Shown here: positions 1,857-26,559 of the stretch, one piece after another
Position numbering within the stretch: the stretch's first letter is position 1
Layout of the letters: every line of letters begins with the position of its first letter
Virus record (IMG/VR): IMGVR_UViG_3300015091_000009
Coordinates: 1-26,559 of that record
Source of the DNA: a virus
DNA length: 26,559 nt
Strand: one strand, 5' to 3'
Position numbers and translations under genes: made by a program
Notes under the pieces: model-generated
Told to the model about the DNA's origin: nothing
Seen by the model: only the letters and a program-made list of their open reading frames with translations
Database searches by the model: none

Positions 1857-1917
1857 TTTAATACTACGGTATTTGTTCAGTTCATGGTACACTACAGTTT
1901 TTAACTAGGGGGTGAAC

Positions 1918-2622
1918 GTGGCTAAAGGTATATATAAAATAATTAATGTTGTTAACAATAAGTTTTATGTAGGAAGTGCGGTAGATTTAAAACGGAGAAA
2001 AACTAGACATTTTTCAGAGTTACGGACTAACAAGCATAACAATAAACATTTACAGGCGGCTTGGAATAAATATGGAGAGTCAGCATTTATATTTGTTGTA
2101 GTAGAAGAAGCAGAAGAATCAGTAAACATATTAGATTTAGAGAATGTATGGTTAAAAGCTCATGTAGGGCAAGCTTACTGTTATAACATAGGAATAGATG
2201 CTGTAGCTCCTATGTTAGGGATGTCTGGGGTTCTTAGCCCTACGTTTGGTAGAAAACGCACTAAAGAAGAACTTATAGCACAAAGTTGGGCAGGGAAAAA
2301 ACACACAGAGGAGTCTAAAGCTAAAATACGAGCGTGGCTTATAAATAAACCTAAATCAGCGGAAACTCGAGCAAAAATCAGTAACTCTTTATTAGGGGAC
2401 AAAAATCATAATTATGGTAAACCTCGTAGTGACGGGTTTAAGGAAAAAGTTAGTAAACGAGTGCAGATGACTAAAGAAAACAACACTACAGATTATGCAA
2501 GTATAGTAGAACTTAGAGAAGCTACTGGACTAAAACCAGCCACAGTGAATAGAGCGTTAAAGTCAGGTAAACCCATTAGTAGAGGCCCATTTACTGGGTG
2601 TGTAATTCAATACTTAAAATAG
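1918..2622 (+). CDS. GIY-YIG homing endonuclease with NUMOD3 motifs
   Basis: A 234-residue site-specific endonuclease. From the chosen start, GIY is at 4-6 and YVG at 17-19, followed by Arg 26/27, His 31 and His 40; Glu 75 in LDLENVWL fits the catalytic metal-binding Glu, and YCYNIG supplies the conserved Asn. Residues about 106-175 hold NUMOD3-type DNA-binding stretches (TFGRKRTKEE, GKKHTEESKAKI, NHNYGKPRS), and about 190-230 a helix-turn-helix-like segment (ELREATGLKPATVNRALKSG). Two in-frame GTG codons exist, at 1912 and 1918. AGGGGG at 1907-1912 overlaps the first and sits five bases from the second, so 1918 is preferred. It occupies its own interval between capsid and tail genes, typical of a free-standing homing gene; no intron is evident. 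Confidence 0.88.
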   Translation: MAKGIYKIINVVNNKFYVGSAVDLKRRKTRHFSELRTNKHNNKHLQAAWNKYGESAFIFVVVEEAEESVNILDLENVWLKAHVGQAYCYNIGIDAVAPMLGMSGVLSPTFGRKRTKEELIAQSWAGKKHTEESKAKIRAWLINKPKSAETRAKISNSLLGDKNHNYGKPRSDGFKEKVSKRVQMTKENNTTDYASIVELREATGLKPATVNRALKSGKPISRGPFTGCVIQYLK

Positions 2623-5622: not shown

Positions 5623-5690
5623 GACCTTGCAGAGGTATGGGTGCTGTAAACCCTAAGAAGCTCCCTGGACGAAAAGGTAAAAAGAAATGA
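5619..5690 (+). CDS. Conserved-looking 23-residue Cys/Lys peptide
   Basis: A very short gene encodes MRPCRGMGAVNPKKLPGRKG followed by KKK. GGAG at 5608-5611 precedes the GTG start by seven bases. The start overlaps the upstream stop (GTGA) and its own stop overlaps the next start (ATGA). The RPCRGMG...NPKK..PG pattern is one I recognise from very short proteins encoded beside connector genes in podoviruses, which raises confidence that it is translated. Its role is unknown. Confidence 0.6.
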   Translation: MRPCRGMGAVNPKKLPGRKGKKK

Positions 5691-6331
5691 ATCATTATGC
5701 CTATATACATTGTAAACCAGATAATACGCCATTTTATGTTGGTAAAGGTACGCGTTTAAGATATAAGTTAAATCAAAAACGTAATGAGTATCATGGTCGT
5801 ATAGTGGCTAAATATGGTGCGCAAAATATAGGCATAGGTATTATTGAATGTTCTACTAGCAAAATTGCTTTATCGTTAGAAGTGGGTTTAATTAAATGTC
5901 TAAAAAGAATGGGCGTACCATTAGCTAATTTGACGGAAGGTGGTGAAGGTACAGTAGGCAGACCTATTACAGATTATGCTAAACAATGTATTTCTCAAGC
6001 AAATAGAGTGCGGGTAGTTTCTGATGAATCTCGTAAAAAAATAGGAGATAGACTTCGAAATACTACTAGGCCCGAACACTCTGATATAATGAAATCTAAA
6101 CAGCTGTGGGTAGGAGATAAAAATCCTTTTTATGGGTGCGGAGAACGGCAGGTTGGAGATAAAAATCATATGGCTAAAGCTGTCATTGGAACTCACCCAA
6201 CTAAAGGTATTATGGAATGGACTACTGTAAAAGCTGCAGCGGATTATCTAGGCGTATCAGATTCAGCAATATGCCAAGCACTTAAGAAATGCGGTAAATC
6301 AAAAGGATGGGCAATGGAGTATAAAGTATGA
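5687..6331 (+). CDS. Second GIY-YIG homing endonuclease
   Basis: A 214-residue GIY-YIG nuclease of a different branch from the one at 1918. YAYIHCKPDNTPFYVGKG (residues 4-21) carries the two nuclease half-motifs, followed by Arg 23/25, RNEYHGRIVAKYG (32-44) and catalytic-type Glu 65 in LSLEVGLIK; LANLTEGGEG supplies the conserved Asn. NUMOD3-like stretches follow at about 110-160 (DESRKKIG, GDKNPFYG, GDKNHMAK), and a helix-turn-helix-like module lies at about 180-205 (VKAAADYLGVSDSAICQALK). It is joined to both neighbours by 4-base ATGA overlaps, with no flanking non-coding DNA. It sits inside a late operon directly before the connector-like gene. It is intact, with no frameshift. Confidence 0.87.
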   Translation: MNHYAYIHCKPDNTPFYVGKGTRLRYKLNQKRNEYHGRIVAKYGAQNIGIGIIECSTSKIALSLEVGLIKCLKRMGVPLANLTEGGEGTVGRPITDYAKQCISQANRVRVVSDESRKKIGDRLRNTTRPEHSDIMKSKQLWVGDKNPFYGCGERQVGDKNHMAKAVIGTHPTKGIMEWTTVKAAADYLGVSDSAICQALKKCGKSKGWAMEYKV

Positions 6332-21544: not shown

Positions 21545-23338
21545 ATGATGGAATCACCTTCAAAATATTCTGTAGAGCAGTTGCTTAAAGCACGTCAAGA
21601 TGGCGTGCCTGATTATATTGTTGTGCCGATGATACAGAAAGCGATGGCTGAGAAACAAGCCTCGCAAAATCAGCAAGCTATGCAACAAGGCGCACAGAAA
21701 CCCCCTACAGTAGCCCAGCAAGTATTAAGTTCAGCTGCTCAGACGATGTCTAAAGAAAAGCAGTTAGAGGGTATGCCTGACATCCCAACTGAAGACTACA
21801 GTGTAACGCCCAAAGGTACGGGTAAACACCCGATGGCTGATGTGCAAGAAGAGATGGGTGAAGAGCCAGAGCAGATGGCAGCTGGCGGTATCGCTGCACT
21901 TCGCAGCGGACTACCTAATGAATATGCAGGTGGCGGCATTATTGCGTTTGCTAATGGTACTGATGACAAAGGTGTACCTGAAGCTGTTGATATTGTTGCT
22001 AATGACCCTGAGCATTTTAGTAGAACTAATGCATTTGGTGGTATCTCTGAAACAGACCCTAAAACAGGAAAGCAACACGTCAAGCACTGGGCTAATGGTG
22101 TTGATAGTTTAAATGCTGAACACGCTAATATTAAAGAAGACCACGGTATGACAGTTAGAGACCGTGAACTAAAATATTATGGTCATGATAAATCTCCAGA
22201 GCAACAGGCTCAATACCTTAAAAACTTCGAGCAGTTCTCTGGCGTACCACTAGATACTAAGATTAACAAAGATGACCCTGAATTAATCAAGAAGATTGCA
22301 GCAGGTACATTTAAACAAGAGCAGGGATTAGATGTTCCTCCCTCCGCGCAAGATGCAATTTTGTCAGGTAAGCCTTATCGAGTTAAAGGTCGTGATGGAC
22401 AAGCAGCACCAGCCAAGGAAGCGCCTAAAGGTATTGCATCATTAGTTCAGCCTCAAGCTGCTTCGCCGCTTGATTTGTCAGAGTTAGAAAACTTAAAGTC
22501 TACATCAGAAGACCGTGATATAAATGCTCAGATGGCTAAAGCTGAAAAACTCTACGGTACTAACCCAGACTACGAAAGACGTGCTAAATCCTACGATGAG
22601 CAGGAAACTAAGCTTAAAGGTGATGACGATAAAGCCATGTGGAAAGCGCTCATGCACGCAGGTATTGGTATGATGAGTGGTAAGTCTCCTAACTTTATGT
22701 CTAACTTAGCATCGGGTGTTACTGCTGGCGCTGAAGACTACGAAAAAACTAGAGAAGATATTGATGCTAAAAAAGCGCATCTTGCACAACTTCGGGATGC
22801 TCTGGGTGATGCACGCCGCCAAGAAAGACTTGCAGTTGCTAAGTACGGTGCAGATAGTGTTCAAGCATCTAAAGCTTCAGATAAAGCCCTTGCATTGGAA
22901 GCGGCTAAAATTAAAGCATCTCGCGGTGAAAAGGAATTATCTGCTGAAGTACAAGGACAAGCTAATGCTATTAGAGCGGCTGAATTACCTTCTGAAATTG
23001 GGTATAAAGAAGCGGCGGCGGCGGCACAGTTAGCTAATGCGGCTGAATCAGCGTATAAATCAAGTCCTGAAGGTAGAAGGAAAGAAGACTTAAAAACCCT
23101 TACTGACAATATAAAATCCTCCGAGACTGTCCTCAATAGCGGGTATTCTTCTGATGCAGATAAGGATGATGCTAGACAACGTCTTAAAGAGTACCATGAA
23201 CAATATAAACTTTTAACAAATATGCCTACATCCCCAACCGCTACCCCTAAAGTAGATATAGGCCCTAAAGGGTATGTCCCTGAGATTACTAGTGGACAAC
23301 AAAAGTTATTGGATATGTACGCAAGTAAACCTAAATAA
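21545..23338 (+). CDS. Internal virion protein with lysozyme-associated-type domain and coiled coil
   Basis: A 597-residue protein in several parts. Residues 1-40 are helical (YSVEQLLKARQDGVPDYIVV). At 111-138 are the tags MAAGGIAALRSG and YAGGGIIAFANG. About 145-260 resembles a domain found in phage peptidoglycan-associated proteins: NAFGG near its start, HWANGVDSLNAEHANI, YYGHDKSPEQQAQYLKNFEQ, FSGVPLDTKINKDDPELIKK, ending FKQEQG. At about 364, MWKALMHAGIGMMSGKSPNF is a motif I recognise from large aquatic-phage virion proteins. A long coiled coil follows (about 385-520). It begins at ATG 21545 or 21548 after AAGGGGG. No catalytic Glu can be assigned, so cell-wall cleavage is unproven. Confidence 0.6.
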   Translation: MMESPSKYSVEQLLKARQDGVPDYIVVPMIQKAMAEKQASQNQQAMQQGAQKPPTVAQQVLSSAAQTMSKEKQLEGMPDIPTEDYSVTPKGTGKHPMADVQEEMGEEPEQMAAGGIAALRSGLPNEYAGGGIIAFANGTDDKGVPEAVDIVANDPEHFSRTNAFGGISETDPKTGKQHVKHWANGVDSLNAEHANIKEDHGMTVRDRELKYYGHDKSPEQQAQYLKNFEQFSGVPLDTKINKDDPELIKKIAAGTFKQEQGLDVPPSAQDAILSGKPYRVKGRDGQAAPAKEAPKGIASLVQPQAASPLDLSELENLKSTSEDRDINAQMAKAEKLYGTNPDYERRAKSYDEQETKLKGDDDKAMWKALMHAGIGMMSGKSPNFMSNLASGVTAGAEDYEKTREDIDAKKAHLAQLRDALGDARRQERLAVAKYGADSVQASKASDKALALEAAKIKASRGEKELSAEVQGQANAIRAAELPSEIGYKEAAAAAQLANAAESAYKSSPEGRRKEDLKTLTDNIKSSETVLNSGYSSDADKDDARQRLKEYHEQYKLLTNMPTSPTATPKVDIGPKGYVPEITSGQQKLLDMYASKPK

Positions 23339-23348
23339 CAGGTATTTT

Positions 23349-26300
23349 ATGGCAACTATAGAAGATATTGGCACAGCTTTAGAAAATGCGCACGCGGCGG
23401 GGGATATAGAGGCAGCTACAGAGTTGGCTAACCTACTTCGCAATTCTCTAGAAGCTCAAAAAGCATTGCCTGACGAACGTAATGAATTTGCAAAGGGTAT
23501 TGTGTCAGGGGCTGCTGGAGTAGCTAGAGGGTTTGTAGGCACACCGCTAGAGGATATCGGTAAGTCTTATAATATGCCTAAACTAGAAGAGTTTGGTAGA
23601 GGTGTTCGTGAGAAAGCCAAGAGTATAGAAGACTACGATGCGAGTAACATCCATTCTGTAGAAGACGTTATGCACCACCCTATCGATGCCCTGCAAACAA
23701 GCATAGGTTCGATTATTCCTCAGATAGCCCCTACTCTGGCTGCTACTGGGGTTGGCGCTGCTGGCGGCGCTGCGTTAGGTGCTTCTTTTGGTCCTGTAGG
23801 CGCTGGTATTGGCGCTATTGGTGGTGGTATAGCTGGCGGCCTTGGAGCTGGAGGCGTACAAGAGTATTCTGAGATTCGTGAAAAGCAACGTGAGCACGGG
23901 CAAGAAGATATTGGTAAGGCTATTGAGTACGCTACCCCTGCTTCGCTTTTAGAATTACTTGCAACCTACCTAGAAACTAAGAGTACTAAACTTCTTCCTG
24001 CGCCTTTACGTACCGCGATTATTGATGGTGCTATGAAGCGTATCGGTACAGCGGGTGTTGCAGAAGCAGGCACAGAGTATATTCAAACTGCGCTTGAGCA
24101 GTTAGGTGCAAGTGAAGATATCACGACTCCAGAAGCTAGTGAAGAGCGTAATCTCAGTGCAGTACTTGGTGGTCTTGGTGGTGCAGGTCTTAGAGGTGGT
24201 ATCGAAACAGTTGGTAAAATATCCGGCACACCAGAAGCTACTACACCTACAGAACCTGTAGAACCTACAGAAGAGCCAGAAGTAACACCCTCACCAGCAG
24301 GTCAGCCTGCTGCAGGTACACCTCTACCTGACAGAAACGATGTTAATATATACGAAGGTGTCGAAGCTGCGGGTGTAGACCCGTTTGAGCATGATGAGCT
24401 TTTTGATGAGCTTATACATCCGAGACATTATGAATCCCCTGAATCTATAGATAAATTAGAAGAGCACCTTAATGCAAACCCTGAAATCCTCCCTAAAGAT
24501 TTTGATGACAGTCTGTGGGCAGAACATATTGCAAAGCAAAGAACACGGTTTGAGAACGTAGCACCTAAAGAAGAGGTTAAGGCAGAAGCGCCTACTGAAG
24601 AAGCTGTTACAGAAGAACCTGAAGAGAAAGCAGAGGAAGATACTAAGTTCCAAGCCGTACATATCCCCTACGAATCTTCAGAAACCCCAGGGCAAAGAGG
24701 AGCCTCGCATTATATTAACTATGCGGGTCGGATGATGACTGTCCGAAATATCAACGATACACTTGTGCCTTTCTACCTAAGCACAGGAAGTGGAGGTAAA
24801 AAGAATGTAGCTTCTGGTAAATGGTATCCTTTCTTTGGTGTAGGTAAAGATGGCTGGATAAATAAAACCAGTGAAGCGGATATGAACTCTTATTATGGGA
24901 GCCCTGCACTTAAAGCTGCTGCTGAACATCTAGACAATACAGTGGGTGATATTCGTAATGATACTACTGTACCGAAAGTAGGTGCTGAAGGTAAGCACAT
25001 GGACTTCATTAACTATGGACTTACCCCAACAGATTTCAAATCCCCTGACACCGTAGGTAGAGTTAAAGAGAACGTAGATAAAATAGTTAGTGCTGTTGAT
25101 ACCCCTAAAGAACCTAAGCCTTCTGTGTCTAAATCAAGTGCCTATACAGGACACACTGTGGAGTCACTGCAACCTCATCTCACACCAGAGATGAAGCGTC
25201 TTATCGAGAGCGGTAAGCTTACTTTGCATGATACGAAAGATACATTGCCCGGCGAAGGACATCCAGATAACGTACAGGGTCTTACAACACCCGAGGGTGA
25301 GGTGCATCTTGTTGCCGATAAGTTAACCCCAGAGGCGCTACCTAAAGTGGCGATGCATGAGATGGGTGTGCACGTTGGTATGAAAGGTATGGTGGGTGAT
25401 AAAGTCTGGGGTGATTTAACGTCTCAAGCTCTGACTACTAAGGGCAAAGCGTTTGACCGTGCACGTCAGTCTGTCCCTGAGAATACACCAGAGCACTTAA
25501 AAGGCGAAGAGACCCTAGCATACCTAGTTGAGAACGCGCCTCATCTACCCATAGTAAAACGTGCAGTATCAGCAATTAAAAACTGGGCACGCACTACATT
25601 TGGTGTAAGACTTAGCATCACCGAGTCAGATATCCACCACCTTGCAGCTAAAGCACTGCGTAGAGAATCTAAAACTTCTAAACGCTCTACACGCGAAGGT
25701 ACAGCTTACGCTCAAAAACCTAGAGAGAATTCTCGTATAGGTATGCCTCATGAACAAATATTAAAACGCGTACCAGAACTCACTGAATCTGCAAAGAAGA
25801 TGATGAATATGCTGTACGATAACAATATGCTTGTTAGAGGTACAAAAGCGATTTTAGTTAAAGGGGTATCCAATAAGGATATTGAAGACTTTGCTTTATC
25901 TAACCCAGAGTTTAGAAAGTTAGCAGAAGCACATGACGCTTTAGTTGAAAAATATAAACCCGTTGAGCCTTACCAATCTCTGCCTACCCCTGCTACAGAA
26001 GGTGAGATGCAAGAAGCTCTAGCTAATTCTAAAACTCCTAAAATAAATCAACCTATTCCAGACGGGTATAAAGTAAAACTACGCTTAGATATACCGGCGT
26101 ATAAAAACGAGGGTATATGGGTGGTAACTGCCCATGAAGGAAATGCTAAAAAGAATTCTATATTTGATGTAGATGTAGGTAAGGCCATTGGCTATTACGG
26201 TCACGCCGTTGCGGATAATCCTAAATTTAGTATTGAGGAAGCAAATGCGTTAAAAATAGCTGACACATCGCATGATAAAAACCCTTTGGCTACGGTTGAT

Positions 26301-26559
26301 GGTGAATACGTTAATATGTCTGCTAAGGAAGCTAAACGATTAGCGGATGAAGCAATGACTGATCCTGATTGGGTGCAAGTGGGTATGGACCCAGAACGTC
26401 ATTCGTACTTCTACGATAGAAAAACTATGCAACCTATAAAATCGGGTTCAAGAGTTATTCAAATTGGAAGTATTCTGATGGTAAAAAACCCTGTATACGG
26501 TAAAAAATCAGAGTACGTGTACTCAGTTAAACCTGATATAGATAAATGGGCGGATAGTG
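23349..26559 (+). CDS. Giant polyvalent-type protein, 3' end outside window
   Basis: An open frame of at least 1070 codons runs to the end of the window without a stop. In order: an N-terminal helical region (MATIEDIGTALENAHAAGDI); a Gly/Ala zipper membrane segment at 118-169; a helical region with GTEYIQTALEQLGA; a Pro/Glu linker (about 290-430); a domain at about 433-545 with VPFYLSTGSGG and KWYPFFGVGKDGWINKTSEA; a region at about 625-790 with MHEMGVHVGMKGM (His 670, Glu 671, His 675) and EETLAYLVENAPHLP; and a C-terminal domain from about 903 with LRLDIPAYKNEGIWVV and QVGMDPERHSYFYDR. This multi-domain layout matches phage polyvalent proteins, thought to be delivered with DNA into the host. 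HExxxH resembles but does not equal the zincin HExxH. Confidence 0.72.
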   Translation, partial: MATIEDIGTALENAHAAGDIEAATELANLLRNSLEAQKALPDERNEFAKGIVSGAAGVARGFVGTPLEDIGKSYNMPKLEEFGRGVREKAKSIEDYDASNIHSVEDVMHHPIDALQTSIGSIIPQIAPTLAATGVGAAGGAALGASFGPVGAGIGAIGGGIAGGLGAGGVQEYSEIREKQREHGQEDIGKAIEYATPASLLELLATYLETKSTKLLPAPLRTAIIDGAMKRIGTAGVAEAGTEYIQTALEQLGASEDITTPEASEERNLSAVLGGLGGAGLRGGIETVGKISGTPEATTPTEPVEPTEEPEVTPSPAGQPAAGTPLPDRNDVNIYEGVEAAGVDPFEHDELFDELIHPRHYESPESIDKLEEHLNANPEILPKDFDDSLWAEHIAKQRTRFENVAPKEEVKAEAPTEEAVTEEPEEKAEEDTKFQAVHIPYESSETPGQRGASHYINYAGRMMTVRNINDTLVPFYLSTGSGGKKNVASGKWYPFFGVGKDGWINKTSEADMNSYYGSPALKAAAEHLDNTVGDIRNDTTVPKVGAEGKHMDFINYGLTPTDFKSPDTVGRVKENVDKIVSAVDTPKEPKPSVSKSSAYTGHTVESLQPHLTPEMKRLIESGKLTLHDTKDTLPGEGHPDNVQGLTTPEGEVHLVADKLTPEALPKVAMHEMGVHVGMKGMVGDKVWGDLTSQALTTKGKAFDRARQSVPENTPEHLKGEETLAYLVENAPHLPIVKRAVSAIKNWARTTFGVRLSITESDIHHLAAKALRRESKTSKRSTREGTAYAQKPRENSRIGMPHEQILKRVPELTESAKKMMNMLYDNNMLVRGTKAILVKGVSNKDIEDFALSNPEFRKLAEAHDALVEKYKPVEPYQSLPTPATEGEMQEALANSKTPKINQPIPDGYKVKLRLDIPAYKNEGIWVVTAHEGNAKKNSIFDVDVGKAIGYYGHAVADNPKFSIEEANALKIADTSHDKNPLATVDGEYVNMSAKEAKRLADEAMTDPDWVQVGMDPERHSYFYDRKTMQPIKSGSRVIQIGSILMVKNPVYGKKSEYVYSVKPDIDKWADS

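Follow-up and report, generated by a model that had tools for sequence, protein, structure and literature searches.

A phage polyvalent protein with an HExxxH metallopeptidase domain, and junction tags that vary with the metallopeptidase family

The last gene of the window, as the whole 26,559-nucleotide stretch of viral DNA analysed here is called, encodes what is, judged from its relatives, a phage polyvalent protein, and within it a domain that is most likely a zinc metallopeptidase (MPTase). The junctions between the modules of such chains carry short tags, and the type of tag agrees with the family of the resident MPTase, an agreement that appears not to have been described previously. 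The tags may be cognate self-processing sites, a reading to which we assign an even chance; metal binding, catalysis, cleavage at the tag, its timing and the location of the window's protein in the virion are inferred.

The reading frame, described in an earlier note as open over the last 3.2 kb, indeed runs for 1070 codons on the plus strand without a stop up to the window end (Table 1). Because the window covers the entire IMG/VR record (26,559 bases), the truncation of the frame is the end of the contig. A second possible in-frame start, an ATG at 23274, lies upstream; the start was assigned to 23349 because the homologues L002 and L003 begin at its equivalent (MATLDDIGEAL). Head, virion structural and tail-fibre genes precede the polyvalent gene, which is thus encoded with virion genes and is the last of their block. 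Two homing-endonuclease genes are located amid the structural genes, at window positions 1912–2622 and 5687–6331 (PHROG 314).

Beyond the point at which the window ends, the relatives meet no early stop and extend about 900 residues further, with additional domains, to end in LPD38; it is on this continuation that the polyvalent identity, already proposed in the earlier note, is based. L003 (on a 64.8 kb contig) is a full-length homologue of 1814 residues that contains LPD38, L005 likewise has LPD38, and L004 combines LPD23, a second HExxH site (HEIQH) and LPD38, with the LPD38 and LPD23 domains of these close relatives scoring above the Pfam cut-offs. In L004:2-5341 the module with LPD23 and HEIQH immediately follows the HExxxH domain. 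No LPD domain is found within the 1070 residues of the window, and LPD38 and LPD23 sit in the continuing part of the relatives. The last residues of the window, YSVKPDIDKWADS, are closer to YSVKPEVDEWAKS of L003 than to the corresponding parts of L004 or L005, and the complete protein is probably ~1,970 residues long. The coding strand switches after the polyvalent gene.

The modules at residues 436–600, 603–775 and 896–1050 are each shared or lost independently among relatives, so that the chain has at least the three domains expected of it and these are unrelated to one another. The glycine-zipper segment of the earlier note was located at about residues 129–170, where a glycine-rich stretch is matched weakly by PHROG families of tape-measure and virion proteins. 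IMG/VR contains at least 582 stretches related to residues 896–1050, hereafter the C-domain, for which Pfam gives no confident match; the C-domain also occurs in short proteins adjoining the portal in the Roseobacter phages CRP-9 and CRP-207. The contig that L002 shares with L051 looks chimeric: the window's neighbour protein is joined there to a start resembling a tape-measure protein, and an MPTase fragment lies on the opposite strand.

Table 1. Features of the polyvalent protein gene in the window (positions are those of the window; residues are those of the protein)
Feature	Residues	Position	Strand	Basis
5' part of the polyvalent protein gene, ended by the contig end	1070 codons	23349..26558	+	Reading frame; full-length homologue L003
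Glycine-rich (zipper-like) segment	129–170	23733..23858	+	Sequence; weak PHROG matches
Exchangeable module	436–600	24654..25148	+	Present in L002, L013 and L021; missing from L003
Linker KPSV, degenerate	590–593	25116..25127	+	Aligned by eye with K[FY]SV of L041/L042
Zincin-like metallopeptidase domain	603–775	25155..25673	+	63-row alignment, AlphaFold2, PHROG 10089
HEMGVH, predicted zinc ligands and general base	670–675	25356..25373	+	Alignment, AlphaFold2
Glutamate pair; E721 predicted third zinc ligand	720–721	25506..25511	+	E721 in 63/63, E720 in 57/63
Linker TAYA, degenerate	785–788	25701..25712	+	Relatives have TA[FY]S / R[FY]S at this site
Widespread phage domain (TQVGMDPxRHSYFYD), C-domain	896–1050	26034..26498	+	IMG/VR relatives
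Junction tag YVYSV, S type, candidate processing site	1056–1060	26514..26528	+	Tag comparison

The MPTase domain is matched by PHROG 10089 (DarB-like) with E=2e-17. Its motif MHEMGVH places H670, E671 and H675, and EETLAY follows at residues 720–725. The earlier note had seen in these a likely metal site, and the comparison of homologues agrees: H670 is invariant in the 63 aligned rows and E671 and H675 are each kept in 62 (the glutamates are given in Table 1), a near-invariance because of which the HExxxH site can be taken as more than a chance occurrence. The spacing is HExxxH in 49 rows and HExxH in 14, the former always paired with E/HExLAYL and the latter always with EE[FV][GA]AY, with zero exceptions. 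In the MPTase tree, the rooting of which is uncertain, the HExxH rows form a single clade nested among the HExxxH rows; this sister clade, to which a virion protein of Burkholderia phage JC1 belongs, shares the fold and has the classic motif, shorter by one residue. The AlphaFold2 model comprises a sheet of three strands (624–627, 642–646 and 652–655), the motif helix and then a glutamate helix, and a model of an HExxH homologue has identical topology at higher confidence. H670, E671 and H675 share one confident helix and E721 lies on the following one, both helices being in high-confidence blocks; at the level of topology the model thus agrees with the clustering of H670, E671 and H675 that the earlier note required. 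Two homologues, L050 (HKAGVH) and L079 (HEAFQ), have a broken site in chains that retain R[FY]S tags.

Searches of the PDB by fold and by profile yielded no significant match for the MPTase domain; the best entry, 4l7a (a putative zinc peptidase), had E=0.47 and probability 0.12, and the fold match to a solved zincin is thus not significant. No match was obtained in PADLOC or NCBIfam, and a search of genome contigs for the MPTase family found nothing. In M49 dipeptidyl peptidase III, an exopeptidase of different architecture, HExxGH with a downstream EExxAE provides the same HExxxH spacing plus glutamate, although this family was unmatched by sequence or fold in the MPTase-domain searches.

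Among the closest known systems are the phage-type polyvalent proteins with zincin-like MPTase domains of Iyer 2017 (PMC5512222), which share with the present one a multi-domain chain ending the virion block, an MPTase hub, LPD38 and LPD23 (here in close relatives) and, in one set of MPTases, the HEXXXH variant, as a result of which HExxxH was rejected as a new motif. That paper proposes self-processing, but neither a linker motif nor a site is named in its text; the agreement between tag and MPTase is absent there, and a search for 'polyvalent proteins' with 'linker motif' in an incomplete literature collection returned no paper. JC1 gp69 and BcepIL02 gp70, DarB-like giant virion proteins of Bcep22-like Lessieviruses, belong to the same MPTase family (34–38% identity over the domain) and have an R[FY]S tag after the MPTase domain, but differ in having the classic HExxH, a length of about 4,500 residues and other cargo modules. 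CsCl-purified virions of phage JC1 yielded 51 unique peptides of gp69 (PMC9144972). The N4 virion RNA polymerase, with its C1 domain (PMC12633501), is likewise an ejected giant virion protein that contains an HExxH domain; it differs from the window's protein in this HExxH spacing and is packaged unprocessed (PMC5512222).

Among relatives with MPTases that are 80–92% identical, the N-terminal part, the 436–600 module and all sequence after the MPTase can differ entirely. By this comparison the MPTase is a conserved hub with flanks that are exchanged wholesale, which we report as new. Junctions were defined as the ends of BLAST homology between chains, and all class tripeptides were scanned with repeated 6-mers masked. 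At these breakpoints [RK][FYW]S ranked first of 948 tripeptides (48 near and 16 far, odds ratio 6.7, p=5e-13), and it ranked first again, of 749, in independent LPD38 proteins without the window's MPTase family (p=8e-7); p-values here and below are too optimistic because the rows are related. The post-MPTase linkers, otherwise unrelated, contain [FY]S in 25 of 43 distinct cases (for example TAFS, TSYS and ARFS), and tags occur at many junctions within one chain. For 28 MPTase-less proteins, which also differ in length and architecture, [RK][FYW]S was not enriched (0.8x expectation). In the window the only clear tag is YVYS (1056–1059), those beside its MPTase being degenerate. The tag codons are diverse, with 59 different nonamers in 91 tags and serine codons of both families, from which it follows that selection acts at the protein level; a role as a DNA recombination site was rejected on the same grounds. 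The idea that the linker docks as a strand into the active site had weak backing from a first model but was not reproduced in a second, which leaves the linker unordered, and was dropped.

The type of tag changes with the MPTase. It had been predicted beforehand that proteins with HExxGH-type MPTases would show [LIVM][FY]Q at their junctions. In the VHEFAH clade this tripeptide ranked first of 1103 (p=1e-13) and [RK][FY]S was at chance. In the flHETGHFF clade the [FY]Q prediction failed as stated; the wider [LIVM]xQ[PGSA] is enriched there (211 near versus 150 expected), and [LIVM]xQ fits instead. The tail of the C-domain ends in [FY]S in 27/27 chains with the window's MPTase family, RHESIH, NHEIIH or VHEAYH, and [FY]Q in 11/11 chains with HExxGH-type MPTases, 2 of these 11 tails holding both dipeptides and being assigned by position; neither dipeptide is present in 22 of 28 tails from MPTase-less chains. 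In the MPTase-less L207, L212, L221 and L234, the C-domain often has [FY][AN] at its end in place of S or Q, and then a GG-rich stretch. In a second cargo, the tail of which in our reading looks like that of ADP-ribosyltransferase modules, 19/19 tails are of the S type (for example PDIRYS) and 14/14 of the Q type (for example PNILNQ), each matching the MPTase (p=1e-9). The cargo-tail tests were framed after the pattern had first been seen, and the effects of MPTase family and of phage lineage cannot be fully separated. The distribution of Q tags on the C-domain tree implies a minimum of 7 changes, 4 of them forced by supported branches, and that on the poorly resolved tree of the second cargo implies 7, with 2 forced. 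C-domains that are about 82% identical (L173 versus L175, L179 and L189) differ in their tags as their MPTases differ. When profiles are compared, the two HExxGH clades fall together at 99.7%, as do RHESIH and NHEIIH at 99.8%, with cross-matches between S and Q types of at most 63%.

This match of tag to MPTase would be expected of a protease that cut its own chain at the linkers: a motif that recurs at junctions and suits the protease of the same chain is a feature of self-processing polyproteins with cognate sites. The window protein would be carried in the virion and then ejected. In its MPTase, H670, H675 and E721 would bind zinc and E671 would serve as the general base, and the enzyme would cut its own or sister chains at the linker tags, either during assembly or after ejection, releasing separate parts. 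For the window's MPTase family the tag would be [RK]-[FY]-S-[aliphatic] or, in a looser form, [FY]S, and for other MPTase families [LIVM]-x-Q, often [LIVM][FY]Q. A processing code in which MPTases of the HExxxH and RHESIH types go with [RK][FY]S and those of the HExxGH types with [LIVM]xQ could, in our estimate, equally well prove right or wrong. Cargo modules brought in by recombination would acquire the matching tag, and the mosaic giant proteins would thereby stay cleavable in the manner of viral polyproteins. Against self-processing stand the tags kept by the broken-site L050 and L079, the degenerate tags adjacent to the window's own MPTase, the unordered linker of the second model and the failed [FY]Q prediction for the flHETGHFF clade. 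A further counter-example is the N4 virion RNA polymerase, which is packaged uncut despite its HExxH domain (Iyer 2017, PMC5512222); a protein need not be cut because it contains an MPTase.

The broken-site members would also suit tags that act as docking or packaging signals, or that are cut by another protease of phage or host, and that follow phage lineage and not the MPTase, from which lineage is not cleanly separated. Against this, tags occur at many junctions of one chain, the S type is shared by MPTase families that are unlinked and belong to different phages, and the tails of cargo domains have switched repeatedly in step with the MPTase; we consider this explanation rather unlikely. 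The loss of a site residue in two members, and an extra residue that breaks the usual i, i+4 spacing, could also indicate that the HExxxH domain is catalytically dead and has a structural role. We consider this highly improbable, given site residues that are near-invariant over deep divergence and a motif spacing that is paired with its glutamate motif without exception in 63 rows. The M49 peptidases, in which HExxGH is combined with EExxAE, are active.

The MPTase could instead be an injected effector that cuts host proteins, such as defence factors, with the tags being merely linkers or other sites. Iyer 2017 (PMC5512222) gives a host-cutting effector as a possibility, and the nearest PHROG family is labelled DarB-like antirestriction, but that label derives from other parts of a 4,600-residue family. 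The MPTase is the constant hub while the other modules vary. Host-targeting domains usually diversify. Since an effector would also leave the agreement between tag and MPTase family unexplained, we judge this account distinctly unlikely; the view of the protein as the window's best candidate for a new effector thus finds no support for a host-directed role, and the evidence leans to self-processing.

Whether polyvalent proteins are cut into parts by their own MPTases, and at which sites, has been a question since such cutting was proposed in Iyer 2017 (PMC5512222). Because the tags change along with the MPTase family, exact sites can now be predicted for many phage proteins, and the question of whether and where the chains are cut becomes directly testable. 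As processing sites, the tags would also mark module boundaries, helping to find effector domains, and could lead to new sequence-specific proteases.
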